The translations under genes and the position numbers were made by a program. From a virus: DNA of 32,827 bases. The DNA lies in the IMG/VR virus record IMGVR_UViG_3300031857_000798, positions 1 to 32,827 of that record. One strand, given 5' to 3'. How positions within the stretch are numbered: position 1 is the stretch's first letter; each line of letters opens with the position of its first letter. The notes under the pieces are model-generated. The model did no database searches and was not told the origin of the DNA. It saw nothing but the letters and a program-made list of their open reading frames with translations. Shown here one piece after another: positions 2,357 through 27,639 of this stretch.

Positions 2357-5206
2357 GTGACTGACTTTCTCAACTCCGTATTACCTACGCAGGGCTTGTA
2401 TTGCACTGTGGGTATTCGGTCAAACGCCGTCAAGCAGTCGTTCCAAGCGACGATTGAAGACGTGGAGGCAGTCGGCTCAGGTATGGATTCTCAAGGCGTG
2501 GATGCGTATTTTGCGCTTGCCACATTTGAAGATGACTCAGGTCGCAAGGTGGACAATGCCATCTTTCTGCGGTCGTTCTTTCTAGACCTAGATTGCGGTA
2601 CAGGTAAGCCATACGCTGACCAAGCTGCTGCTGCCCAAGCCCTATCCATATTTGTTGCTGACACGAAGCTCCCAAGTCCAACGCTTGTTAACTCAGGTGG
2701 TGGGCTACATGTCTATTGGCCCTTGACCGAAGACGTGCCCGTATCCGAGTGGATACGACACGCAAAATCACTGAAGCGTTTGTGCGCTCAGAAGAAACTA
2801 TTTGCTGACCCTGCCGTAACTGCAGATGCTGCACGTATCTTGCGCATACCCGGCACCCATAACTTTAAGAACGAAACCTCGAGACCCGTACAGATTATTG
2901 CAATGGGTACGCCCGTATCCCTTGCTGAGTTTATTGAGCCGTTACCCGCCCCTGCAATGGACTTGAGTGCTGCCAAACAGTTTGGCATGGACGATACGTC
3001 TAAGGATATTGGTGGCACTGGCGACTACCCTAAGTGTTCGTTTAAGCGCATAGCTATCCGTAGCATTAACGGTAACGGTTGTGCGCAGATGAAGCATGCC
3101 ATTGAGCAAGCACCTACACTGGAAGAGCCGTTGTGGAGGGCTGCGCTGTCTATCGCTGTGCGTTGTGAAGATGGCCCCACGGCTATCCATACCATGTCCA
3201 AACGGCATCCCGAGTACTCGGCAGAGGCGACTGAAGCTAAAGCTGCTGAGACCAAAGGCCCGTACACCTGCGAGTGGTATCGGGACAACAACCCATCACT
3301 GTGCGAGGGTTGCCCACAGAAGATTTCTACACCTCTTCTGTTGGGTAAGTTTGTAGAGCAGGCAGTGGTTGAGGATGACCAGTACATCATTGAGACGCCC
3401 AAGGACGAGACGGCACCTGCACTCACCATGTCGATACCGGCATATCCGTTCCCATACTTCCGTGGGGCTAACGGTGGTGTATACAAGAAAGAACGTACCC
3501 CTGATGGTGAGGAAAAGGATGTTGAAATTTACCCATACGACCTATACCTGACAGAAAGGTTCTTTGACTCTGACCAGTATGGCAATGGTGAAGGCGAGAT
3601 GGTGGGGCTGAACTTGCACATGAAGCAAGACGGTATCCGCAGGTTCTACGCCCCAGTGACAACACTGTTCACTAAAGATAAGATGCGTGACCTACTGATT
3701 AAAAACGGTGTGGTCGCTTACGGAAAACACTTGGATGCAATCATGGCTTATTTTGCTTCGACACTACGCAAACTGCAGTCGCAGTACGCTGCAAACAGAA
3801 CCCGCAATCAAATGGGGTGGACACCGGATGGGCTTGGCTTTGTTGTAGGTGAGTTGGAATACACGGCAGCGGGTACTAAACTAGCGCCCCCCGCAAGCGG
3901 TACACGAGAGTTGGCTGAGCAGTTTAAACCAACTGGCACGTTAGAGGAGTGGAGCAAGATCGCTAACTTCTACAACCGGCCCGGACTTGAGACACATGCA
4001 CTGGCGTTGTTTTTTGGCTTTGGTTCACCCCTGTTGAAGTTTATTGGCCCCAAGCAGAACGTAAAGGGCGCGTTGATTCACCTTAAACACAACGGGTCAG
4101 GCTCCGGCAAGTCAACGGCTCAGATGGTGGTCAACTCTATCTTTGGCAACCCTGACACCCTACTGCTGAAGCAAGACGACACGTACGCTTCCAAGATGCA
4201 CTTGCTTGGCATGATGAACAGCATTGCGTTTACTGTGGATGAGATCACCAACGAGAAGCCTGAGGTTCTGTCTGACTACGCCTATGGATTCACCTCAGGG
4301 CGAGGCAAGCACCGTATGGAATCGCAGAGTAATAAACTGCGTGTGAACAACACAACATGGTGTAACTTTACCCTGTCGTCCGGCAATGCCTCTGTTGTTG
4401 ACGCCCTGCAGAACCTTAAGAGTACGGCAGATGGTGAGCTTCGTCGGGTGCTTGAGGTTGCGTTCCACAAATACACAGGCTCAACCAAGGCCGAGATTGA
4501 CGAGACGTTTGGCAAGCTTAATTCTAACTACGGCTTGGCAGGCCCGATATACATTCAGTACATCATTGACAACCACGACCATGTAATGAAGCTGCTTGCT
4601 GATATGCAAGCCAAGGTGGACAAGGCGCTGAACCTAGATCAGACTGACCGTTTCTATTCTTGTTTGTTGACGTGTGCCTTTGTGGGTGCCTTGATTGCAA
4701 AAAAGCTTGGCCTAATTGACATCGACATTACACGTATTTACCAATACGCACTGGGCGTAGTTCGGGAGTCGATTGCATCTAACTTGTCTAGCGTTGGTAA
4801 TCCAATGACTGTGGCACAAGAGACACTGGGCGCGTTCATCAACGAGAACGTCAACAATGCAATGGTGGCTGCATATACCCCCAAGGGTGGCTTGCCTGAG
4901 AGACCTGCGCTAACACCCAAGGGCAAACTGGTGATGCGGTACGACCCTGACACCAAGACGCTTGCAATCCCTGTGGCTGATTTACGCAAATACTTTACCG
5001 GTAGACAGGTGGACGTGCGTGATAGCTTGGCACGGCTAACCACTGCGGGGTATCTAAAGCACGGTGGCAAGTCGCATCCAACTCGGATTGGTGCGGGAGC
5101 CGTTGGTGGGCTTAGCGGTATTGCAGTACGCTGCTACATCTTTGATGGAGACGTAATTGGCATTGACGAAACGGCGTTCGCGCAAGCGGAAGCTTCCGAC
5201 ATTTAA
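2357..5206 (+). CDS. DNA primase-helicase (archaeo-eukaryotic-type primase fused to P-loop ATPase)
   Basis: The start is GTG with GAGG four bases upstream. The 949-residue protein carries an N-terminal primase-polymerase domain of the archaeo-eukaryotic superfamily. Its metal-binding motif is FFLDLDCG (Asp77 and Asp79), the second motif is SGGGLHVYW (His118), and the third is ADAARILRIPGTHNFK (about 156-171). About residues 300-325 hold a cysteine cluster (CEWYRDNNPSLCEGCP), probably a zinc site. The C-terminal half has a P-loop GSGSGKST (580-587) and a Walker B-like FTVDEI (Asp628, Glu629), as in DUF927- or SF3-like replicative helicases. The protein should lay down primers and unwind DNA at the phage fork. 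It is the core replication enzyme here; no DNA polymerase gene is in the window. Its 3' end overlaps the next gene by 50 bases. Confidence 0.88.
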   Translation: MTDFLNSVLPTQGLYCTVGIRSNAVKQSFQATIEDVEAVGSGMDSQGVDAYFALATFEDDSGRKVDNAIFLRSFFLDLDCGTGKPYADQAAAAQALSIFVADTKLPSPTLVNSGGGLHVYWPLTEDVPVSEWIRHAKSLKRLCAQKKLFADPAVTADAARILRIPGTHNFKNETSRPVQIIAMGTPVSLAEFIEPLPAPAMDLSAAKQFGMDDTSKDIGGTGDYPKCSFKRIAIRSINGNGCAQMKHAIEQAPTLEEPLWRAALSIAVRCEDGPTAIHTMSKRHPEYSAEATEAKAAETKGPYTCEWYRDNNPSLCEGCPQKISTPLLLGKFVEQAVVEDDQYIIETPKDETAPALTMSIPAYPFPYFRGANGGVYKKERTPDGEEKDVEIYPYDLYLTERFFDSDQYGNGEGEMVGLNLHMKQDGIRRFYAPVTTLFTKDKMRDLLIKNGVVAYGKHLDAIMAYFASTLRKLQSQYAANRTRNQMGWTPDGLGFVVGELEYTAAGTKLAPPASGTRELAEQFKPTGTLEEWSKIANFYNRPGLETHALALFFGFGSPLLKFIGPKQNVKGALIHLKHNGSGSGKSTAQMVVNSIFGNPDTLLLKQDDTYASKMHLLGMMNSIAFTVDEITNEKPEVLSDYAYGFTSGRGKHRMESQSNKLRVNNTTWCNFTLSSGNASVVDALQNLKSTADGELRRVLEVAFHKYTGSTKAEIDETFGKLNSNYGLAGPIYIQYIIDNHDHVMKLLADMQAKVDKALNLDQTDRFYSCLLTCAFVGALIAKKLGLIDIDITRIYQYALGVVRESIASNLSSVGNPMTVAQETLGAFINENVNNAMVAAYTPKGGLPERPALTPKGKLVMRYDPDTKTLAIPVADLRKYFTGRQVDVRDSLARLTTAGYLKHGGKSHPTRIGAGAVGGLSGIAVRCYIFDGDVIGIDETAFAQAEASDI

Positions 5207-5459
5207 GACACCGAAGGCTCCTAAGCCAAAGCCGAAGCTGTCGGACAACATGAGAGTACTCACCCTGTTTGGGGTTGAGTATTTTCTCCTTTGGGAGCGG
5301 TTTGTTATCGGTAGCTCGTTCTTCTTGCCTACCACTGCAACACCCGCGCAGGTGCGAAACGCACTCCTACCGGCTACTAGGTTTCTTAAAATCAAAATAG
5401 AAGTACGCGCCCGTTGTGAGTACGGGCGGTACGGTACGCGAGTTTGGCGGGTCTACTGA
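5157..5459 (+). CDS. hypothetical protein nested in the 3' end of the primase gene
   Basis: The frame begins with TTG at 5157, six bases after GGAG (5147-5150), inside the primase gene; the next in-frame ATG is at 5250. The 100-residue product has a very basic N-terminus (KRRSRKRK, then KAPKPKPKPK-like repeats), followed by a compact domain with LFGVEYFLLWERFVIGSSFF, ALLPATRFLKIKIEV and a C-terminal GTRVWRVY. This pattern (aromatic core, SFF, final RVWR) looks like a conserved small phage protein rather than a chance frame, although I cannot name it. The basic tail suggests nucleic-acid binding. It is the last gene of the rightward module and its stop overlaps the end of the convergent late operon by 7 bases. 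Confidence 0.7.
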   Translation: MALTKRRSRKRKLPTFKTPKAPKPKPKLSDNMRVLTLFGVEYFLLWERFVIGSSFFLPTTATPAQVRNALLPATRFLKIKIEVRARCEYGRYGTRVWRVY

Positions 5460-8400
5460 ACTTTGCGTAGTTCTGCTTTGGCTTCACGTACCCAACCAAC
5501 CAACTCAATCTCCATCTGTTTCAGTTCTTTGAGTTCTGCTTCGCGGTCTGCCTTGCTCATGTCATTAGCACCCTCTGGGCTGTTCAAGAACTTGCGATAA
5601 GCACGGGTGCGTTCCAGTTGTTCAAGCGTAGAGTTAACTGCGCTCTCTAACATTAACTCATCCCCATGTTCCTCAATGTATTTCTCAGCACGGGTTAAGT
5701 CGGTTTTCATCAACTCATTCAGCGTAGTGTTTGCCTTGCCGACCTTCTCGCGCTCCTCGTAGAACTCAGTCATGCGTCGTGTGCCAACTGGGTCATATAA
5801 GTAGTTGCTGAACAGTGCGTACTTATGTAGTGGGCGATCAACTCGCGTTGGGTTAAGTAAGCTGTCCGTCACCATCGTAACCATTGCAGCAGTTGAGCCG
5901 AAGTATCCACGCAGTGCGTTGTCAAGCATGATTGGAGAAACTTCAACGCCAATCTCATCACGGCTAAATACGGCAATGGCTTTAGCCAACTCAGACGTCT
6001 GCTCAGTCATACGCATGCTTGGGTCCATCGCCCTGTGGTGATAGCCTTCCAAGTCTTTGCCAGTCAAGAATGACTTGTTAGCCCATGCCTCAATCACCGG
6101 TTTGATAGCTTGCGGTATTGGCACGGCACGACCTAAGTACTGCTCAAACATATAGCTCAGCGTTGTACGCACGGCTTCAAATGCCGTTTGCTCTTCTGGT
6201 GTACCCTGACGACGCATGTATTCTACGATACGCTCGGGAATGACTTTAAAGATAGCACCTAGTTCGCCCGGAACTCCGATCTTGTATCCGCCACCAAGAA
6301 TCCAGTTGCTGTCCCGAGTACGCAAGTCCATCTCGTTGTAGTCTTCGTCGTCATCGCCCTTACCCAACGCATACAGGGAACTCAGCATCGTGACAGTAAC
6401 CGCACGGCTATAGAACAATCGCCGAGCTTGCGCACGATCAACAGAAGAACTTGAGTCCTTGCCTGACGCTGCGCGATACAGCACATCCATACCTTGTATG
6501 TAAGCGTTAAAGAACGGGATGACCGTAATCATGTCAGTCACAAACTGATTCGCACCACGGCGACGGAAGTTAATAAACTCACGGGCACGGGTCTGTGCCA
6601 ACAACTCATCGCCCTTGCTTTCCTTCATGGTCTGATCGTAGATTGCCTTACGAACGGCCAAGTCAGACGCACGGGTAATGCCATCGAGTTTGTGAATCAG
6701 TGACTCAAACCTACCGCGCTTTTTGTAACCTAAATCTTTTAGCAAAGATGTTGCAGGCTTACCGGCTTCAAAGTCGTACTCACCAGTCAAACCGAGGCGT
6801 CCAAAATCTCTGACGTATGGGTGTTCAAGCCCCGGCAAACCAAACAGCGCCTTCACAGTTTGTTTCCCTTCGTGCCACACTAAATTACCAAAGTTAGTCA
6901 AAGACATCCATACCAATGCGCCGGGGTTTCTTACACCGGAGGTCATGATGGCACGTTGCACGTCGTCCATTACCTGCTTCAACGCAAATGGCGGCAGTAC
7001 AGTAACTGTTTTGCGTAGGATGTTAGAGAACGCACCCATTGCCCGAATCCAACCCGCCTTAGGTGGGTTCAAGTCTTTAAACGCCATGACGTCGTACTTG
7101 CTTGGCACTGACCAATACATCATCTCGCCGTCAACATAAGCGCCAACAACGTTTGGTTTGCCTTGGTTAGTGCGCCCCAAGAACTTAGCCTGTCCAATGT
7201 CTTCTAGGCTACGCAAAGTTGTTAAAGTAGCGTCGGCTTTAAGTGTTTGCCCAACCATCCAACCGAGCGTGTTTAGGTAGTTATCGAACACATTGCCCAC
7301 CGGACGGTTGAGCGAACCAACCAACTCAGGTAGCTTGCCAAGTTGTGCCAAACCTTTACCACTGATCTTTTTGGCTTTGTTGAAGTTGGTGGTTACCTCG
7401 TCAATTGTTTCACGGTCAAATGGTACATAGCCTACGACCTCGCGCCACAGCTTGCCTTCTTCAGCAGACAATCTACCTACCGAAACCAAGTTGTCAACCA
7501 TCGCTTTACGGGCTTCGTCCATGAGCTTGCTCATTTCCTGCAAGTCTGGGTCGGCGTTGTATGCTTTTACTAACTGGTCGATCTCGTTGTCTTTTAAGTG
7601 AATCAGGAACGTTGTGCCGTCTTGCGCATTAGACCTGCGCATCTCATTTAAACGCACACCTTCCAACACACGGCTGGCAATTTGTGTGGCGCGTTCACGG
7701 CTGTATCCGTTTTTTTCTCCGTACTTGTCAATCAAACCATAAACTTCTGCAGGTGGGCGTACGCCTTCACCCATGCCGGACTTCCACAAGCCTGTTGTTT
7801 TATCTTTATACAACGTGCCAGTTTGGAAATACTCAAGCAGCATCTTGGTGTAGTCTTGCGCTTGACGGTACAGACCCATGGGGTTTAGCTTGCCCAGCTT
7901 GTCACGCACCGCGCCATCAAACTTCTCACTCAAACGTTTTTCAATCGTGGCAGCAATGTCTGATACTTGCGTACGGAACTTAGTCACGTAGCCAATGTCA
8001 GAGTTGGATTGAACACCGGTAAGTAAGTTTTTTAATCCGGATTTGTCGTCACGGTTTAACGGCCCCATGGAGTCAATAAGTTGCTCGTCGCTAAAGGTAA
8101 CGGCAAAATCAATCTTAGTGTCTGCTGGAGAAACAGAACGCGTACCAGCGGGGTTAAACCCCCATAAGAAAGCATCAGCACTGCCCGGCCCCATGTTTTC
8201 TAAGAATTCTGCAACGGCTCTGGATGGTGGGAACTTACGCCCTGACACCACGGCAACCAAGTCACGCATCATTTGCGCAACTTTAGAGAAGAACTTTTCG
8301 GCAATCGTCAATGGCTTATCGGCAGTGGTGGCCCAACGAGACACGTTGTCTGCAAACCACTCACTAAATCCTAACCAGTATTGCTGTTGCTTTGCTCTTA

Positions 8401-11400
8401 GTTGATCTGTAGTTACGTCAGGAATACCGGACCGTTCCATGTTTTCCGTACCACGGCGGTTGCGAAGATTGGGAACTAACTCCCGCATGCTCTTGCCTTT
8501 GTTGGTGGCAAGCCATGCATCGTACTCATACAAGACCGCTTCTTTTTCTTTTACAGACGCGGTGTCAAACGCAATATGCTGGATCATGTGCCCAAGTTCA
8601 TGAGCAATAATCTCAAGGGTCATGTCCGGGTCCATATCGTCCCGGATATAGAGAAAGAACTCTTGGTAGTTTGGCCCCATTCGCGTTGTAGCGCCTTTGG
8701 TTTCGTCCCCCCGCGCCAACATTTCGTATGGACGAGCGTACCTACCATGCAGATGAAACTTCTCGGGAAAGTTTTCTACGTCTTTACCAGTAAAGAAAAA
8801 TGTGTTGATGTCCTTTAAACCCAATGAGTCCATCAAATCCCGCAGATATGCAACGTATCGTGGGTTAATATTGTCGCCAGCCACTACGTTTGATTTGGCA
8901 TTGGTAAACGGCCCGTTGGGGTATTTCTTGGTTAAGTCTTCTTCACGTTTAACGTCTTCCCGTTTTGCTTTTTGCAGTTCAGCAATTTCTTGGCTGGAAA
9001 AACGTCTGGTAGTTGTTGGGTCCATTACAGACACATCAGTTGACACGTAGGGAGACGTGTCACGCGCTGCACCGTAAACAATTTTGCCGTCGGGGTCTAC
9101 GTACTTAACAAGCGCAATATTGCCTTGGCTGTATGTAACAACGCCTTTGTATTTTATTGCTACAGAATTAGCCCACTTTGGATGCACAGGTTTGGCTGCT
9201 ATAGCGGCTGCGTTTTTGGCAGCGTCTGCCTTGGCTCTGGCTTCTTTTTCCTTGCGCTCCACTTCCTCCATCTGCTTTGCAAATTCATCTGCTTCGCGCT
9301 TGCGTTCAGCCTCTTCCTCAGCTTCTACTTTGGCTTTACGGTCAGCTTCCGCTTTAGCTTCCGCATCCTCTTTGGCTTTACGCTCGGCATCTTCACGAGC
9401 TTTGCGTTGCGCGTCAGTTTCTACAGTTTCAGCAGTGCCAGTAGCAGCCGGTGCTTTAGTCGTTTTGGTAGTGGTAGTTTTAGTAGCTGCCCCAGTAGCC
9501 TTCTTTGATCCCTTAGTAGTCGTGGTAGTGGCAGGAGCACCAGTAGCAGCAGGAGTAGTTGTAGGCGCATTTGTTCCTTTAGCGAGTCGTTCTGCTTTGT
9601 CTAGCGAATCCCACTCCGCTTTCTTTTGAGAAAGCAGGTCAGTTATCTCATCCCATCTTGCACGAGCTTTAGATTTCACAGCGGGCCGTTTCCCTGCGCT
9701 AGTGAGAAGGGCTTGTTGCTCTTCCCTTAGCACCCGCATTTCATCCATAACTTGGTCGGCTGTTCTATTAGCCGTTACTGCAGGGGGCTGAGTTCCTTGA
9801 GCTTGAGTTCCCGTGCCAGCAGGTTGTCCAGCAGGTGCCAATCCGAGTCCGTCAGGTGTTGCAGATGTTCCGGTGGTGGCGGGAACTCCGGTTCCGGGTT
9901 GTACCACGTCGGTGCCGGTAGGCTTACCAGATACTCCCACGCTTGGCTCACCTCCTCCGAGGTCAAGCTCGCCTTGAGGCTGATCCGTTTGGGTAGGGGT
10001 CGGGACATTTTTCTTCTCCTCAAAAACTGCAGGTTGTGGCGATACCAACGCTTTCAATACCCCCGCACGCGCCCCAGTACCACTGATAAGTTTAGGGTCA
10101 CGCTGAACCAGCGCTTTAATTTCCTCAACGGTTTTGCCTAGCACATTGTCTTGTATCCACTTTGCGGATGTTTTCAAAGGCAGACCTATGGCATCAATAT
10201 CTGCTTGTGTAATAGGTGCAGTAGTTGCACCAGCCAATCCGGGAAAGCGTTGCGCACCGGCTTCGTCAGCGGCTTTTTTCTCTGCTTCTTCCGTAAGTCG
10301 TTGTTCTTTAATGATTTTTTCGGCTTGACGTCTGCCAATATCGGCTTCGTCGTATGACGCCCGTTGCTCGGCCAGTTCTTTGATACGCGCCTTGACCTCA
10401 GGGGTTTGGGGCTGCATCTTAAGCGTTTCTTGTTCTTTAACAAGGTCAGCGTAGTCGCGCTCGTAATCTAATCCTAAACCAAGTTGTTCGCCTTGCTGCA
10501 CTGCAGCAGGCTGGGCGGGGGCGGGTTCTTCTTTGGGTTCTGGAACCCGCTTGCCCATTTCTTTGGGCGTGAACAGCGTACCCTGCGTACCCACAGGAGC
10601 TTCCTCAGGCAGTTTGGCTCCGGGAACTACTTCTTCTGGGGGTGTAGGCGCGGGTCTTGCCGCTTCTTCAGCACGTTGTTGCTGTTCTACCTGTCCACGG
10701 GCTTGACCGCGTTCTACAACCCCCGCTGCGCCACCTAGCGGGCCACCAATCAACGCAGCTTGGTATGCGGACTCGCCGTACTCTTTGAGGGCATCTGGGG
10801 ATGTTAGGTCTAACCCAGCTTGATAGCGTTCAAGGATTTGCTGGCTAACCTCAACTGGCATTTCAGCAGTACCACGGGCAACACCACGCCCCGCAGATGC
10901 AGCCAGCGAACGCTCGGCGGCTTTGACTAACTCAGCTTGCGATTTGGCTGTAGCAAGTGCGGCATCATCTGCAACACCAAGAATACCTTTGACAACTCGT
11001 TTGCCTAGCGTAAAGGCAGTACCTACGCTCTCTAATGCGGCTTGGCCTGCGGCAGCGGTATAGGCTTTTGTGCGGTCAATACTGACGTCTTTGCCTTCTT
11101 CCATTTGCTCAGAAGCTTGGCGCTCAACGTTAGAACCCATAAACTGGGGGAGAAGCGCACCTGCGGCACCAGCCGCACCACCAATAATTCTGCCTCTTGC
11201 CCCAAACGGGGCACCTGCAGCAGCACCGGCTTTACCGGCAGCATACATAGACGCTAAGTTAGCGCCTTGTCCAGCTAACGCACGGGGGATTTGAGATACG
11301 GCTTCGCCTGCTGCAGACAGTACGCCTTTGTCTTGATACGCTTTTTGTACGGCTTCTAAGGAGGGTCCAACACCAGCTTCTTCTCCAATGGCTTGGCTAC

Positions 11401-11632
11401 GGGCAACACCAGCCTTAGCTGCCTCCTCAGGGTCAAAAACGCTACCAACACCCGTACGAGCAGAAGATACTAACTGTTTGGCACCACGGACTAACTCACT
11501 ACCAAACGTAGATTCTTTGGGTGCGGCGGGTGCCTGAGTATGAGTGTAGTTAGCCCACTGCCATGCCGTGTTGGAATCCGGTGCATCTACTTCGTAGGTT
11601 TTACCACCAACATCGACTTCATACTTAGGCAT
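5453..11632 (-). CDS. giant polyvalent virion protein with zincin-like protease motif and LPD38-like region
   Basis: This 2059-residue protein is the last and longest gene of the late operon; ATG at 11632 follows GGAG at good spacing. In order it has: an N-terminal YEVDVGGKTYEVDAPDSN segment of a type seen at the start of phage internal proteins; an Ala/Gly-rich, membrane-active-looking stretch (about 125-165); Pro/Thr linkers (about 530-750); a Lys/Glu/Ala coiled coil (about 745-812); a metalloprotease motif HELGH (His1011, Glu1012, His1015) with a possible third ligand Glu1091 in SEWFADNVSRW; long helical regions; and, near Pro1706, a PFFNAYIQGMDVLYRA segment typical of large polyvalent protein-associated domain 38. 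Polyvalent proteins are thought to be packaged in the capsid and injected with the DNA to act on host targets. I see no cysteine in the whole protein. The protease substrate is unknown. Confidence 0.88.
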   Translation of the reverse strand: MPKYEVDVGGKTYEVDAPDSNTAWQWANYTHTQAPAAPKESTFGSELVRGAKQLVSSARTGVGSVFDPEEAAKAGVARSQAIGEEAGVGPSLEAVQKAYQDKGVLSAAGEAVSQIPRALAGQGANLASMYAAGKAGAAAGAPFGARGRIIGGAAGAAGALLPQFMGSNVERQASEQMEEGKDVSIDRTKAYTAAAGQAALESVGTAFTLGKRVVKGILGVADDAALATAKSQAELVKAAERSLAASAGRGVARGTAEMPVEVSQQILERYQAGLDLTSPDALKEYGESAYQAALIGGPLGGAAGVVERGQARGQVEQQQRAEEAARPAPTPPEEVVPGAKLPEEAPVGTQGTLFTPKEMGKRVPEPKEEPAPAQPAAVQQGEQLGLGLDYERDYADLVKEQETLKMQPQTPEVKARIKELAEQRASYDEADIGRRQAEKIIKEQRLTEEAEKKAADEAGAQRFPGLAGATTAPITQADIDAIGLPLKTSAKWIQDNVLGKTVEEIKALVQRDPKLISGTGARAGVLKALVSPQPAVFEEKKNVPTPTQTDQPQGELDLGGGEPSVGVSGKPTGTDVVQPGTGVPATTGTSATPDGLGLAPAGQPAGTGTQAQGTQPPAVTANRTADQVMDEMRVLREEQQALLTSAGKRPAVKSKARARWDEITDLLSQKKAEWDSLDKAERLAKGTNAPTTTPAATGAPATTTTTKGSKKATGAATKTTTTKTTKAPAATGTAETVETDAQRKAREDAERKAKEDAEAKAEADRKAKVEAEEEAERKREADEFAKQMEEVERKEKEARAKADAAKNAAAIAAKPVHPKWANSVAIKYKGVVTYSQGNIALVKYVDPDGKIVYGAARDTSPYVSTDVSVMDPTTTRRFSSQEIAELQKAKREDVKREEDLTKKYPNGPFTNAKSNVVAGDNINPRYVAYLRDLMDSLGLKDINTFFFTGKDVENFPEKFHLHGRYARPYEMLARGDETKGATTRMGPNYQEFFLYIRDDMDPDMTLEIIAHELGHMIQHIAFDTASVKEKEAVLYEYDAWLATNKGKSMRELVPNLRNRRGTENMERSGIPDVTTDQLRAKQQQYWLGFSEWFADNVSRWATTADKPLTIAEKFFSKVAQMMRDLVAVVSGRKFPPSRAVAEFLENMGPGSADAFLWGFNPAGTRSVSPADTKIDFAVTFSDEQLIDSMGPLNRDDKSGLKNLLTGVQSNSDIGYVTKFRTQVSDIAATIEKRLSEKFDGAVRDKLGKLNPMGLYRQAQDYTKMLLEYFQTGTLYKDKTTGLWKSGMGEGVRPPAEVYGLIDKYGEKNGYSRERATQIASRVLEGVRLNEMRRSNAQDGTTFLIHLKDNEIDQLVKAYNADPDLQEMSKLMDEARKAMVDNLVSVGRLSAEEGKLWREVVGYVPFDRETIDEVTTNFNKAKKISGKGLAQLGKLPELVGSLNRPVGNVFDNYLNTLGWMVGQTLKADATLTTLRSLEDIGQAKFLGRTNQGKPNVVGAYVDGEMMYWSVPSKYDVMAFKDLNPPKAGWIRAMGAFSNILRKTVTVLPPFALKQVMDDVQRAIMTSGVRNPGALVWMSLTNFGNLVWHEGKQTVKALFGLPGLEHPYVRDFGRLGLTGEYDFEAGKPATSLLKDLGYKKRGRFESLIHKLDGITRASDLAVRKAIYDQTMKESKGDELLAQTRAREFINFRRRGANQFVTDMITVIPFFNAYIQGMDVLYRAASGKDSSSSVDRAQARRLFYSRAVTVTMLSSLYALGKGDDDEDYNEMDLRTRDSNWILGGGYKIGVPGELGAIFKVIPERIVEYMRRQGTPEEQTAFEAVRTTLSYMFEQYLGRAVPIPQAIKPVIEAWANKSFLTGKDLEGYHHRAMDPSMRMTEQTSELAKAIAVFSRDEIGVEVSPIMLDNALRGYFGSTAAMVTMVTDSLLNPTRVDRPLHKYALFSNYLYDPVGTRRMTEFYEEREKVGKANTTLNELMKTDLTRAEKYIEEHGDELMLESAVNSTLEQLERTRAYRKFLNSPEGANDMSKADREAELKELKQMEIELVGWVREAKAELRKVQ

Positions 11633-23181: not shown

Positions 23182-23274
23182 TTAAACCAAACTCCATGCA
23201 ATTATGTAAGTGCCATAGATGACGAAGGCCACTATACAGGCTGCGGCAATGAACGCTTCAGCCCAGTCCCACAT
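23182..23274 (-). CDS. 30-residue membrane peptide at the head of the lysis cassette
   Basis: ATG at 23274 is preceded by GAGGTG with about seven bases of spacing, a strong ribosome binding site, and lies 17 bases inside the end of the upstream gene. The product starts MWDWAEAFIAAACIVAFVI and ends YIIAWSLV: essentially one membrane helix with Trp/Asp at the N-terminus. The stop is one base before the ATG of the next gene. It is the first of the run of tightly coupled membrane genes leading to the endolysin. Function unknown. Confidence 0.68.
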   Translation of the reverse strand: MWDWAEAFIAAACIVAFVIYGTYIIAWSLV

Positions 23275-23767
23275 TTTGGATCACCTCAACCCAAGAAGTT
23301 GTAGCTTCGTCCCAGCTATATTTTTTGCCGTCATTAGGCATGGGGGTTGGCGCTTCCCATCGACCGGTAGTTTCGTTTTTAACCCAACTTGGATACGGTG
23401 ATGGATAAGGAATTTCCACCCAAGCGGTTGTCGCTTCGTCCCAGCGGTACTGTTTGTTGTCTGTCGGATACGCTACCGGAGCAATCCATTGGCAAGTAAC
23501 CTCGTCTAGAACCCAGCTTGGGTAGGGTGTTGGCGGAACAAACGCATCCAGCGTAGGGTTGTATTGGAAACCAATCCCCGCATAATTTTTACGGATGTTG
23601 CCGTTGTAACTTGTTTGCCTCCAGCGCGTACCGGGGAACAATGATTGACAAAAGGCAATTCCAACAGATTCGGATTCATTTCCGTTGTCGCCTAAGCATT
23701 CATTGTTATGTACCACAATAACTTGCAGTACTACATTGTTGTCATCAAGTTGTGCAAAATGTGCCAT
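23258..23767 (-). CDS. tryptophan-rich repeat phage protein
   Basis: ATG at 23767 follows AAGGTGACAC. The 169-residue protein starts MAHFAQLDDNNVVLQVIVVH and has a conserved-looking core with GIAFCQSLFPGTRWRQTSYN and NIRKNYAGIGFQYNP. Two 43-residue repeats follow from about residue 81. Each has the layout PYPSWV...W.AP...P.D.K.Y.WDEATT.WVE. I recognise this type as recurrent in aquatic phages, including cyanophages, with no assigned function. The Trp/Tyr/Pro repeats suggest a surface-exposed binding module on a fibre or particle. It lies between the glycine-rich fibres and the lysis cassette. Confidence 0.85.
   Translation of the reverse strand: MAHFAQLDDNNVVLQVIVVHNNECLGDNGNESESVGIAFCQSLFPGTRWRQTSYNGNIRKNYAGIGFQYNPTLDAFVPPTPYPSWVLDEVTCQWIAPVAYPTDNKQYRWDEATTAWVEIPYPSPYPSWVKNETTGRWEAPTPMPNDGKKYSWDEATTSWVEVIQNVGLG
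23270..23527 (-). repeat. two 43-residue Trp-rich repeats
   Basis: Coding repeats of 129 bases start at 23527 and 23398. Both encode PYPSWV at the start and YxWDEATTxWVE at the end, with a W-x-AP and a P-x-D in between. They are degenerate at the DNA level. Confidence 0.8.
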
Positions 23768-23775
23768 GTGTCACC

Positions 23776-24936
23776 TTAGAAAGTAATTGAGCCGGAGCTA
23801 TTCCATTGATAAATGCGATAGCCCCCCGCAACGGTAATTGTAGGAGAACCGGTTGTACTTGTCGCGGCTTGGAACGTATCTGCGTAGCGAATAATAACAA
23901 CGCCCGAGCCACCATTACCGCCCCTATACTGAACAGCGCAGCCGCCACCACCACCGCCAGTGTTGTCGGTTCCGTATTGGGCATTACCGGGGAAGTTTTC
24001 AGCGTTTCGACCAAAGCCACCACCACCTAAACCTCCGGGGATTGGATCGCCCTGTCCAAGTTGTGTACCACCGCCGCCGCCCGCATAGTAAGTAGCTGTT
24101 CCAGTAATAGAAGACTCTAGGCCATTACCTCCTCGGTAACCTACAGTGTTACCCGCCTGCCCAGCACCGCCACCTCCACCTCCAGAGCCGCCTCCATTAC
24201 TGCCTTGCGATGGACTTGTTGATGGGGTATTACCAGCGCCACCACCGCCTCCATCACGTCCACCGCCACCGCCACTGCCACCAGAGCCGCCACTGCCTTG
24301 GTAAGTTCCGCCAAATCCTCCGCCATTAGAAGTGATGCTTGAAAATACAGAATTTGATCCGGTTGAGCCTTGACCTGTGCTGGAGCCAGTACCCCCGCCG
24401 CCCACAGTTACAGTAATAGAAACGCCAGCAGAAACGGCAAAACCTGTTGCAGTTCTATAGCCGCCCGCCCCGCCACCGCCACCGTTGTAGTGACCAGTAC
24501 CTTGTGAATTATTTGCGCTACCACCGCCACCGCCACCGGCTACAACCAAATACTCGACTGTCGATGTAATAGCAGGGGCCACTGGAGTTACGCTATTTGA
24601 TGCTGCGCTTGCAGGGCCAGTACCTTGTGTGTTGGTAGCCCGTACAGTAAAAGTATATGCCGTGCCGTTGGACAGTCCAGTTACTACAAGAGGAGAAGAC
24701 GCCCCACTAGCCGTTAAACCGCCGGGGGAGGATGTTACGGTGTAGCCCGTAATTGCACTAGAGCCAACATAAGTAGGCGCAGTAAAAGTAACAGACGCTT
24801 GCGCATTACCGCCAGTGGCAGTACCAATTGTAGGCGCTCCGGGGAACTGCGGCCAGTTGCTACCTTGAATAGCTCGCTTGACCTTTTTTACAGTCCATAG
24901 GCCATTGGCGTTTGTTGGTGATGGGAATTGAGCCAT
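23776..24936 (-). CDS. Fn3 plus glycine-rich tail fibre protein
   Basis: ATG at 24936 begins two bases after the stop of the oxygenase gene, with no clear ribosome binding site, so translation is probably coupled. The 386-residue protein has an N-terminal tag (MAQFPSPTNANGLW...GSNWP, about 1-29), one fibronectin type III domain (about 32-118: PGAPTIGTATGG, SAITGYTVTSSPGG, GLSNGTAYTFTV), and a glycine-rich domain (about 125-340) opening with VEYLVVAGGGGGG. It closes with GVVIIRYADTF and GGYRIYQWNSSGSITF. Glycine-rich domains of this sort occur at the receptor-binding tips or shafts of phage fibres (for example long-tail-fibre adhesins), where runs of glycine form polyglycine II sandwiches. It should be an extracellular adhesin part. 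Confidence 0.87.
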   Translation of the reverse strand: MAQFPSPTNANGLWTVKKVKRAIQGSNWPQFPGAPTIGTATGGNAQASVTFTAPTYVGSSAITGYTVTSSPGGLTASGASSPLVVTGLSNGTAYTFTVRATNTQGTGPASAASNSVTPVAPAITSTVEYLVVAGGGGGGSANNSQGTGHYNGGGGGAGGYRTATGFAVSAGVSITVTVGGGGTGSSTGQGSTGSNSVFSSITSNGGGFGGTYQGSGGSGGSGGGGGRDGGGGGAGNTPSTSPSQGSNGGGSGGGGGGAGQAGNTVGYRGGNGLESSITGTATYYAGGGGGTQLGQGDPIPGGLGGGGFGRNAENFPGNAQYGTDNTGGGGGGCAVQYRGGNGGSGVVIIRYADTFQAATSTTGSPTITVAGGYRIYQWNSSGSITF

Positions 24937-24938
24937 GG

Positions 24939-25514
24939 TTAACTGTACCGAACGTTAAAAGACAAGCTAATTCGCTCTTGAGTCGTTGGAATTGTACGGT
25001 GCATCAAGTGGCTTGGAAATATAAAACATCTACCAGTTACCGTTTCATACTCAAGATTGTGGCAATTCTGCGGTGTTAGCTCTGTATGTTTTGGGTAAGA
25101 CGGTTGAAAAAAGTGCCAAGGCGCTTGAGTAATAAAATCTTTGACCCCGTGTGCTTTGAGATACACACAGCCAGACAATACGCTATCTTCATGCGTATGC
25201 AAATCTTGATAGCCGTTAGTTTGATATTCGTTTAGCCAAGAGCCGCTGAACATCAAGTTATTTTTGTTAATCTTTGCAAAGTCACAGTACGTTGCAACGC
25301 ATTCAATTACAAACGTTTTAAGCTGTGCAAACTCTGGCAGTTCTAACACGGTACCAAATGTTCGCACGGTGCTATTACATGGGCTATAAAACGGGTTGTC
25401 GCCATGCGTTTTTAAAATCTGTTTTGCGCAGTCAATAAGCTCAGGTGTGATTAAGCCGTCAGAATCTCGTTCTAACATTGGCACGGGGAACACATAAGAA
25501 CATTTTGCAGTCAC
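24939..25514 (-). CDS. 2OG-Fe(II) oxygenase
   Basis: The start is GTG at 25514, overlapping the stop of the upstream fibre gene as GTGA. The 191-residue protein fits the short phage 2-oxoglutarate/Fe(II)-dependent dioxygenase family. A double-stranded beta-helix core carries DLHTHEDSVLSGCVYL (His106/His108 and Asp110 as HxD-type iron ligands), the distal FIFPSHLMHRTIP (His172), and ERISLSFNVRYS, where Arg181 should bind 2-oxoglutarate. Members hydroxylate proteins, small molecules or nucleic acids; the substrate here is unknown. The nested position between two fibre genes sharing an N-terminal tag is unusual and suggests a virion protein, or a step late in infection, as target. I am confident of the family and not of the substrate. 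Confidence 0.88.
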   Translation of the reverse strand: MTAKCSYVFPVPMLERDSDGLITPELIDCAKQILKTHGDNPFYSPCNSTVRTFGTVLELPEFAQLKTFVIECVATYCDFAKINKNNLMFSGSWLNEYQTNGYQDLHTHEDSVLSGCVYLKAHGVKDFITQAPWHFFQPSYPKHTELTPQNCHNLEYETVTGRCFIFPSHLMHRTIPTTQERISLSFNVRYS

Positions 25515-26728
25515 GATAGATATATCCTTCCGGTAACTCCTGTACCACCGCCCGCAGAACCGCCATTACCCGCAGTGCCACGGTTGGCATCACTTGAATT
25601 ACCTACTGTACCCGTAGACGCATTGCCGCTGTATAGTGTTCCGGATGTAACAACTGAGCCGTTAACGTAGCCAGAACCGCCGCCACCACCAAAACCACCA
25701 GCGTCACCGCCACCTTCACCGCCGCCAAAATAACCCGCGCCGCCACCCCCAGAACCGGCATCACCACCGTTGAACGTACCAACACCGCCCGTTCCAAACC
25801 CAGTACCGCCTGTTGTATATGCTGATCCAGTATTACCGCCGCCACCATTACGACCAGAACCTGAAGCGCCAGTACGACGACCACCATTACCACCAGCGCC
25901 AGCAGCGCTTTGAGTACCACCAAAACCACCGCCTCCGGGAGCAGTCTCACCCGTAGTACCACCACCGCCGCCACCATATCTACCTGATCCACCCTCAGCG
26001 TTACCGCCACCGCCACCGCCAACCATAATTGGTGTAGAGCCAGAAGTAAATTGAATGCCCGAACCCGCACCGCCAGCACTAGCTGCACGGCTAACCGAAG
26101 TGCCTTGACCGCCCGTACCAACAATCAGTTGATATGAGGTTCCGTTAGTCATTGCAATCGTGCCCGTGGCCGCACCAGCGGGGCCGCCGGAAGTTGTCAT
26201 ACCGCCACCGCCCGCACCCCAAACTTTTGCAGATACGTTATAACTTGATGTAGGGACAATAGTCCATGTACCGCCAGAACCGAGATTAAGCGCTCCGTCA
26301 CTCTCTAGTGTCCACGTACTCTTACCAGATACCGCAGGGGATATTGTAAAAGCTCTAACCGATGCGGGAGTAACGCTGTTAGATGCAGCACTTTCCGCAC
26401 CATAACCAATAGCATTTTGTGCCGCCACTGTAAATGTGTAGGCGGTGCCGTTTGTCAAACCTGTAATTGTGATGGGAGATGACGCGCCTGTTGCAGTAAT
26501 ACCGCCGGGTGAAGAGGTAACTCTGTAACCTGTAATTGCGGAACCGCCATCACTGGCTGGCGCTGTAAATGTTACCGATGCAGAAGCACTAGCGCCAGTA
26601 GCCGTGCCAATTGTTGGCGCTCCGGGAACAGTAGCCGTTACAGGCCAATTATCGCCAGCTTCCGCACGATAGACATCCGTCATGTTCCAGACGTCTGATG
26701 CACTAGAGGTGGATGGAAATGTTGCCAT
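25511..26728 (-). CDS. Fn3 plus glycine-rich tail fibre protein (paralogue)
   Basis: The 405-residue product has the same N-terminal tag as its neighbours (MATFPSTSSASDVW...GDNWP), then a fibronectin type III domain (about 34-121, near-identical in layout to that of the 386-residue fibre), a short beta region (TWTLESDGALNLGSGGTWTI) and a glycine-rich domain (about 170-400). Unlike the other glycine-rich fibres it lacks the IRYADT...GGYRIY C-terminal block and ends GGGTGVTGRIYLS. The ATG at 26728 lies two bases after the stop of the upstream gene with no ribosome binding site. Likely an extracellular adhesin or fibre tip; the different end may mean a different receptor or partner. Confidence 0.87.
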   Translation of the reverse strand: MATFPSTSSASDVWNMTDVYRAEAGDNWPVTATVPGAPTIGTATGASASASVTFTAPASDGGSAITGYRVTSSPGGITATGASSPITITGLTNGTAYTFTVAAQNAIGYGAESAASNSVTPASVRAFTISPAVSGKSTWTLESDGALNLGSGGTWTIVPTSSYNVSAKVWGAGGGGMTTSGGPAGAATGTIAMTNGTSYQLIVGTGGQGTSVSRAASAGGAGSGIQFTSGSTPIMVGGGGGGNAEGGSGRYGGGGGGTTGETAPGGGGFGGTQSAAGAGGNGGRRTGASGSGRNGGGGNTGSAYTTGGTGFGTGGVGTFNGGDAGSGGGGAGYFGGGEGGGDAGGFGGGGGSGYVNGSVVTSGTLYSGNASTGTVGNSSDANRGTAGNGGSAGGGTGVTGRIYLS

Positions 26729-26730
26729 GA

Positions 26731-27639
26731 TTAGAACGTGATTGAGCCGGAGCTAGTCCATACATAAATACGATACCCACCAGACACTGTAATAGTAGGG
26801 CCACCTGTTGTTGAAACTGCTGCAATGTATGTGTCTGCGTAACGAATAATAACAATACCTGACCCCCCGGCTCCACCACTTCTGCCGCAAGAGTTAGTTA
26901 CACCGCCAGCGCCCCCACCCCCACCACCAGTGTTGTTTGTTCCTGCTGCACCGTTACCTGTGGAGCCGCAATCATAAGCGCCACCTGTTCCTCCGCCACC
27001 ATTACCGCCTGTAGCAGCACTGCCATCAGCCATGTGGCGTCCACCACCGCCACCACCTGCATAGTAAGTAGCAGAGCCACTAATTTCGGAATATAAACCC
27101 CCGCCCCCGTTACCCGAAGAGTTTCCGGATGCGTTTTGACCAACAACAGAAGCGCCGCCCCCGCCGCCGCCAGTATTAGAGTTACCGCCTGTACCACCGG
27201 CATTTCCTTGACCCGATACCCCTGCACTTCCCGCCGCACCCGTAGCGCCACCGCCACCAGAACCACCAGAACTACCACTAGAGCCGTTGTATCCACCGTA
27301 ACCACCACCAGTAGAAGTGATAGAAGAAAAAACTGAATTAGAACCAGCGGTAGGCAAGGTGCTTTGATTACCGCCTCCTGTACCACCACCGCCAACAGTA
27401 ACAGTAATTGCTGAACCGGAAGAAACCGCAAAACCTGTAGCCGTTCTACAACCCCCAGCACCGCCGCCACCACCCCCCGCCCATTGACCGCCCCCACCGC
27501 CACCAGCAACTACAAGGTATTCAACGGTTGGTGTAACTAGCGGCGGAGGTACAGGCCAGTTATCGCCCATTTCGGCGTCGCGCACATCCATGAGGTTCCA
27601 ACGCCCATAGGCGCTGCTAGGGGATGGAAAATCCGCCAT
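26731..27639 (-). CDS. glycine-rich tail fibre protein (short paralogue without Fn3)
   Basis: The 302-residue protein starts with the shared tag (MADFPSPSSAYGRWNLMDV, GDNWP) and passes directly, without Fn3, into the glycine-rich domain opening VEYLVVAGGGGGG (about 38). The C-terminal block (IVIIRYADTY, GGYRIYVWTSSGSITF) closely matches that of the 386-residue fibre. The start codon overlaps the stop of the upstream gene by one base (TGATG). It is likely a fibre or fibre-tip subunit related by duplication to the two Fn3-bearing genes. Its glycine codons are read as long valine/leucine frames on the same strand, which are artefacts. Confidence 0.86.
   Translation of the reverse strand: MADFPSPSSAYGRWNLMDVRDAEMGDNWPVPPPLVTPTVEYLVVAGGGGGGQWAGGGGGGAGGCRTATGFAVSSGSAITVTVGGGGTGGGNQSTLPTAGSNSVFSSITSTGGGYGGYNGSSGSSGGSGGGGATGAAGSAGVSGQGNAGGTGGNSNTGGGGGGASVVGQNASGNSSGNGGGGLYSEISGSATYYAGGGGGGRHMADGSAATGGNGGGGTGGAYDCGSTGNGAAGTNNTGGGGGGAGGVTNSCGRSGGAGGSGIVIIRYADTYIAAVSTTGGPTITVSGGYRIYVWTSSGSITF

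Follow-up and report, generated by a model that had tools for sequence, protein, structure and literature searches.

Oxygenase locus and fibre array

The window analysed here is the whole 32,827-nucleotide stretch of the IMG/VR virus record IMGVR_UViG_3300031857_000798, and all positions given for it refer to that full length. Its minus strand carries an array of glycine-rich fibre genes, within which lies a gene for a 2OG-Fe(II) oxygenase (Table 1). A preliminary description of this locus gave coordinates, strand, and gene order that proved exact. The oxygenase starts with GTG (25514-25512), just behind the sequence GGAAGGA; this start and the TGA of the upstream fibre gene share the letters GTGA, and the oxygenase stop is followed after 2 bp by the ATG (24936) of the downstream fibre gene, both as described. 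The shared N-terminal FPS..NWP tag reported there is likewise present in all three window fibres.

The downstream fibre scores 74.6 bits against PF21722 (Gly_rich_2), above the cutoff of 24.3. For the upstream fibre, a profile search gave no match to PF21722 or PF12810 at E ≤ 0.1, and a search by sequence for solved structures gave no match to its glycine-rich domain. Judged by its sequence, this domain is a glycine-rich subtype separate from Gly_rich_2. The minus strand also carries a 2059-aa ORF at 5453-11632.

Table 1. Features of the oxygenase locus (window positions)
Feature	Position	Strand	Basis or remark
2OG-Fe(II) oxygenase, PF13759 / PHROG 81, 191 aa, GTG start	24939..25514	-	Profile matches, AlphaFold2 model, dN/dS
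Upstream fibre: FPS..NWP tag, Fn3 domain, C-terminal glycine-rich domain	25511..26728	-	Overlaps oxygenase by GTGA
Glycine-rich domain (279 aa) of upstream fibre	25514..26350	-	Directly upstream of oxygenase in L004, L005, L007, L015
Downstream fibre: NWP tag, Fn3, Gly_rich_2 (PF21722)	23776..24936	-	Profile match
Third NWP-tagged Gly_rich_2 fibre of array	26731..27639	-	Profile match
phrog_7759 protein, usual last member of fibre/oxygenase cassette	23258..23767	-	PHROG match and cassette order
H106-T-H108-E-D110: H106 and H108 invariant, D110 variable	25185..25199	-	Alignment of 50 sequences and hhalign
FPSHLMH: distal His H172, expected metal ligand	24999..25019	-	Alignment of 50 sequences
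RISLSFN: R181 (expected 2OG-binding Arg, 45/50) and invariant N187	24954..24974	-	Alignment of 50 sequences
GGRRTGASGSGRNGGGG stretch, kept in oxygenase-paired domains, largely present in unpaired L138 too	25835..25885	-	
FNGGDAGSGGGG: Asn (domain position 194), Ser (200)	25739..25774	-	Kept in paired domains; replaced in unpaired L138 and L036
GNTPSTSPSQGS loop motif in downstream fibre	24199..24234	-	Commoner in oxygenase-linked glycine-rich fibres elsewhere

Identity, fold, and active site of the oxygenase

The identification of the gene product as a 2OG-Fe(II) oxygenase is borne out by profile matches, with which the predicted fold agrees. Specifically, residues 92-187 match positions 2-101 of the 101-position PF13759 (2OG-FeII_Oxy_5) profile (E = 3e-16; 60 bits, above the curated cutoff of 27), and the protein matches PHROG 81 “2OG-Fe(II) oxygenase” (E = 3e-27); its TIGR02466 score of 46.4 bits is below the curated cutoff of 62.5. 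Comparison with the 93%-identical L004 copy (labels of the form L004 denote the compared records) gave a dN/dS of 0.031 at a dS of about 1.1, so that the protein is strongly constrained.

An AlphaFold2 model built from 43 relatives reached a pLDDT of 95.3 and a pTM of 0.90, superseding one built from 5 sequences (pLDDT 60). Its best PDB matches are two solved PF13759 proteins, 3bvc (TM 0.84) and 2rg4 (TM 0.81). The next-ranked folds are mostly protein prolyl hydroxylases (viral vCPH and P4H-EF-Tu among them), with HygX also high. Since the PDB contains a disproportionate number of prolyl hydroxylases, this rank is weak evidence; the likeness to protein prolyl 4-hydroxylases is a resemblance of modelled fold, and hydroxylation of Pro is one possible activity.

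The preliminary description had assigned an HxD...H iron site and a distal Arg. In an alignment of 50 oxygenase relatives, the distal part of that site holds, with H172 invariant and R181 kept in 45, and the HxD, read as H108-E-D110, is mis-registered. H106, H108, and N187 are likewise invariant in all 50, whereas position 110 is most often N (37 sequences), with D in 5 and G in 4 (Gly in the close relative L015). When aligned with PF13640 enzymes by hhalign, H106 falls on the His and H108 on the Asp of the canonical HxD. The frequency of D at position 110 and this register lead us to reject H108-E-D110 as the iron site. By alignment, the canonical 2-His-1-carboxylate HxD/E...H triad is absent, with His108 where Asp would be expected, and the residues of the PF13759 family (HxH, H, and R) are all present as H106, H108, H172, and R181. 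Based on residue conservation and the hhalign alignment, the family seems to carry HxH...H instead of two His and a carboxylate.

The oxygenase is paired with a glycine-rich domain in four lineages

Relatives of the window oxygenase were found in L004 (93% identity), L005 (61%), L007 (50%), L006 (49%), and L015 (48%). Except on L006, the gene lies directly after a fibre carrying the glycine-rich subtype of the window's upstream fibre; this domain is 59-65% identical between the window and L005/L007, and that of L015 matches the window-type domain by profile (E = 5e-81). The pairing of one enzyme clade with one domain subtype is thus present in four lineages (window/L003/L004, L005, L007, and L015), and blastp between the lineage contigs limits homology to the enzyme and the glycine-rich domain, with two exceptions: one weak match, and a collagen-like fibre that L007 has in common with L015. 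The short L006 contig has no fibre; its oxygenase lies within a run of five tandem 2OG-oxygenase-like genes (5720-8722) of at least two families (PF13759 and PF13640). In cellular genomes, we found no confirmed relative of the window-clade oxygenase.

A second PF13759 clade occupies an ordered fibre cassette

A profile scan of IMG/VR with a related PF13759 alignment (a broad 16-sequence alignment being too diverse as a scan profile) returned at least 598 relatives, of which the best 80 were examined. Their usual gene order is a glycine-rich fibre, a protein of ~85 aa (phrog_21526), the oxygenase, and phrog_7759. Among those of the best 80 of at least 598 with room upstream, a glycine-rich ORF lies no more than three genes upstream of 65 out of 67 oxygenases, a count that is not fully independent because the locus contexts overlap partly; 10,000 draws of random genes from the same loci averaged 21 and never exceeded 36. 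No common flanking gene was found for 64% of locus pairs, and the loci still form one loosely connected set. A tree places the window clade and this second clade well apart and requires the fibre-linked label to be gained or lost at least seven times on well supported branches. No fused oxygenase-fibre ORF was found among oxygenase ORFs over 280 aa.

The ~85-aa protein, “GIDTAMHLLRPGAKWEI...RWDDPRPCPTWEEV”, lies between fibre and oxygenase in most cassettes (L048-L127; e.g., L066:7747-8001) and is missing from the window cassette. In the large cassette, its distances correlate with those of the enzyme at a rho of 0.51, compared with 0.37 for phrog_7759 and 0.34 for the fibre. Because this correlation is the highest, the small protein is an alternative partner of the oxygenase; it is possibly either a fibre chaperone or the enzyme's partner.

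Fibre loci with and without the oxygenase

Viewed from the fibre, a 2OG oxygenase (PF13759- or PF13640-like) lies within five genes downstream in 19 of 63 loci and upstream in none, and 44 of the 63 have no oxygenase. We conclude from these counts that the oxygenase is an accessory of some glycine-rich fibres. It overlaps the preceding gene or lies within 30 bp of it in 134 of 154 cases. The records L138 (122 kb) and L036 have the window-type domain, and neither contains a PF13759 or PF13640 gene. On L042, a PF13640 enzyme, from a different family, overlaps the end of a fibre with a related glycine-rich domain.

The preliminary description had expected the oxygenase to co-occur with FPS..NWP-tagged fibres. 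Comparative synteny upholds the linkage to fibres, specifically to glycine-rich ones, and not the linkage to the tag: NWP occurs in 9 of 91 oxygenase-linked versus 11 of 101 unlinked glycine-rich fibres, and the NWP-tagged phages L039-L041 have no PF13759 gene. The tag is therefore rejected as the partner, and the oxygenase tracks the C-terminal glycine-rich domain. The opposite arrangement, with oxygenases mostly away from fibres, does not apply to the two relevant clades and does apply to some T4-like cyanophage copies and to cellular homologues. T4-like cyanophages have several PF13759 genes each, some far from fibres (the S-B64 copy is near psbA). Among cellular PF13759 loci, an adjoining glycine-rich fibre was found in 0 of 13 (13 of 15 loci yielded the enzyme ORF), and all cellular-genome loci of the second clade lack the cassette. 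A separate conserved neighbourhood is seen in L207-L213, where cellular PF13759 genes of Bradyrhizobium and Gammaproteobacteria MAGs adjoin ~690-aa and ~900-aa genes.

Candidate modification sites in the fibres

Seven positions of the window-type domain, including N194, S200, and N230, are kept across five paired domains but differ in both unpaired ones, a comparison that involves related rows and just two unpaired full-length domains (L138 and L036). Unpaired relatives at a greater distance, however, again have N230. We regard N194/S200 within FNGGDAGSGGGG as a weak candidate modification site. The motif GNTPSTSPSQG, carried by the downstream window fibre, occurs in 68 of 91 oxygenase-linked versus 24 of 101 unlinked glycine-rich fibres, where related rows inflate the significance. 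These motif enrichments (NTPSTSPSQG and N194/S200) may serve as leads only.

Proposed role and alternatives

With moderate confidence, we propose that the gene encodes a fibre-operon 2OG/Fe(II) enzyme that hydroxylates the adjoining glycine-rich adhesin; the substrate, the residue, catalysis, and the effect on host binding are what we infer. The oxygenase would be produced from the fibre operon through translational coupling and would hydroxylate at least one side chain in the receptor-binding domain encoded immediately upstream, a glycine-rich domain that is probably polyglycine-II. Hydroxylation would take place before or during fibre assembly and could alter the stability or the binding surface of the adhesin. 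What the analysis establishes is the enzyme fold (as a model), the conserved HxH...H...R site, purifying selection, and the recurrence of an ordered cassette with glycine-rich fibres across several phage lineages. In favour of a role on the fibre are this recurrence in both clades, the downstream position, the PF13640 enzyme in the same place on L042, and the lack of such fibres at the 13 cellular loci. Against an exclusive role on the fibre, most glycine-rich fibres have no oxygenase, the domain occurs in L138 and L036 with no such enzyme in the record, and in the large cassette it is the ~85-aa protein with which the enzyme co-diverges best.

Phage 2OG oxygenases are abundant and are usually taken as genes that reprogram host metabolism. 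An auxiliary metabolic gene riding in the fibre region, which would use 2-oxoglutarate or act on a host protein or small molecule, is the rival that we take most seriously, although we consider it clearly less probable. It is the published reading of the cyanophage and DSL-LC04 copies (PMC3037559, PMC9602691, PMC10611076), and it agrees with the fibre-distant copies of T4-like cyanophages and with the fibre region being a common site for accessory genes. However, a hotspot predicts varied cargo on either side, whereas the oxygenase is consistently downstream, usually at the short spacing given above, and its partners stay the same while the fibre domains are specific to the clade. Because the pairing is ordered, coupled, one-sided, and clade-specific, we consider a role on the fibre likelier than a general hotspot for accessory genes.

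The pairing with a receptor-binding domain could also be accounted for if the oxygenase were co-selected with the adhesin and modified the host surface (a glycan, an outer-membrane protein, or peptidoglycan) or a small molecule tied to adsorption or superinfection exclusion; one of the nearest folds, HygX, does act on a small molecule, hygromycin. This we judge unlikely, given that 2OG and Fe(II) are cytosolic and that no export signal was noted by eye in the 191-aa sequence. Less probable still is that the protein retains the oxygenase fold without its catalysis and helps the glycine-rich fibre (or the ~85-aa protein) to fold or assemble. Fibre chaperones typically adjoin fibre genes, and the usual carboxylate of the iron triad appears to be replaced (HxH...H), but H106, H108, and H172 (50 of 50) and R181 (45 of 50) are kept over very divergent sequences, which would be needless without catalysis.

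Hydroxylation of a virus's own structural proteins by virus-encoded enzymes already exists in giant viruses: Mimivirus L230 hydroxylates the virus's own collagen-like protein (PMC9546862). On the basis of synteny, the window oxygenase may modify a structural protein of its own virus in an L230-like manner. L230 and PBCV-1 vCPH are, like the window enzyme, virus-encoded 2OG oxygenases, and vCPH is among its fold matches; they differ in belonging to eukaryote viruses and other enzyme families and in having collagen substrates rather than a glycine-rich adhesin. Glycine-rich receptor-binding tips are known from T2/S16-type gp38, and phage adhesins of this kind bind receptors (PMC12892980); the window domain shares the glycine-rich character of gp38, without a sequence match to solved structures.

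Among closer enzymes, the T4-like cyanophage PF13759 / PHROG 81 / TIGR02466-like oxygenases share the Pfam and PHROG families, the HxH...H...R residues, and a similar size with the window enzyme, but are about 24-34% identical to it, and the several copies per phage often cluster with other oxygenases or lie close to photosynthesis genes and are interpreted as metabolic. The closest solved structures, 2rg4 and 3bvc (TM 0.81-0.84), have the same H-x-H motif but are cellular, uncharacterised Roseobacter-group proteins with His at position 110. The oxygenases of phage DSL-LC04 (ORF78) and podovirus ctNMl277 lie among or just after Gly_rich_2 fibres, with phrog_7759, and belong to the other PF13759 clade, at about 30% identity to the window enzyme; the DSL-LC04 copy was published solely as a metabolic gene. 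In the literature searched, we found no paper tying phage oxygenases to fibre modification.

The fixed pairing with glycine-rich fibres, seen in many aquatic phages that otherwise differ, suggests another role for a large group of these oxygenases: they may modify the virion, which can be tested. In that case, adhesin chemistry, and so host range, would not be readable from the fibre sequence alone. More tentatively, these genes could form a widespread aquatic-phage module in which a three-histidine (HxH...H) oxygenase of the fibre operon hydroxylates glycine-rich adhesins after translation and so tunes receptor binding; it would be the first virion-adhesin hydroxylation in phages of bacteria, by a metal site unusual for the superfamily.

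Other oxygenase loci

Near a glycine-rich fibre on L008, a cluster of 2OG-oxygenase-like genes (3016-8641) surrounds a FAD protein (5769-7403) that resembles tryptophan halogenase (identified by eye). In L195 (P-RSM4), L196 (S-B64), and L014, probable 2OG oxygenases are labelled “DNA endonuclease V” or “ferrochelatase”; PHROGs 274 and 3531, which bear those two names, also match 2OG oxygenases, suggesting mis-annotation.
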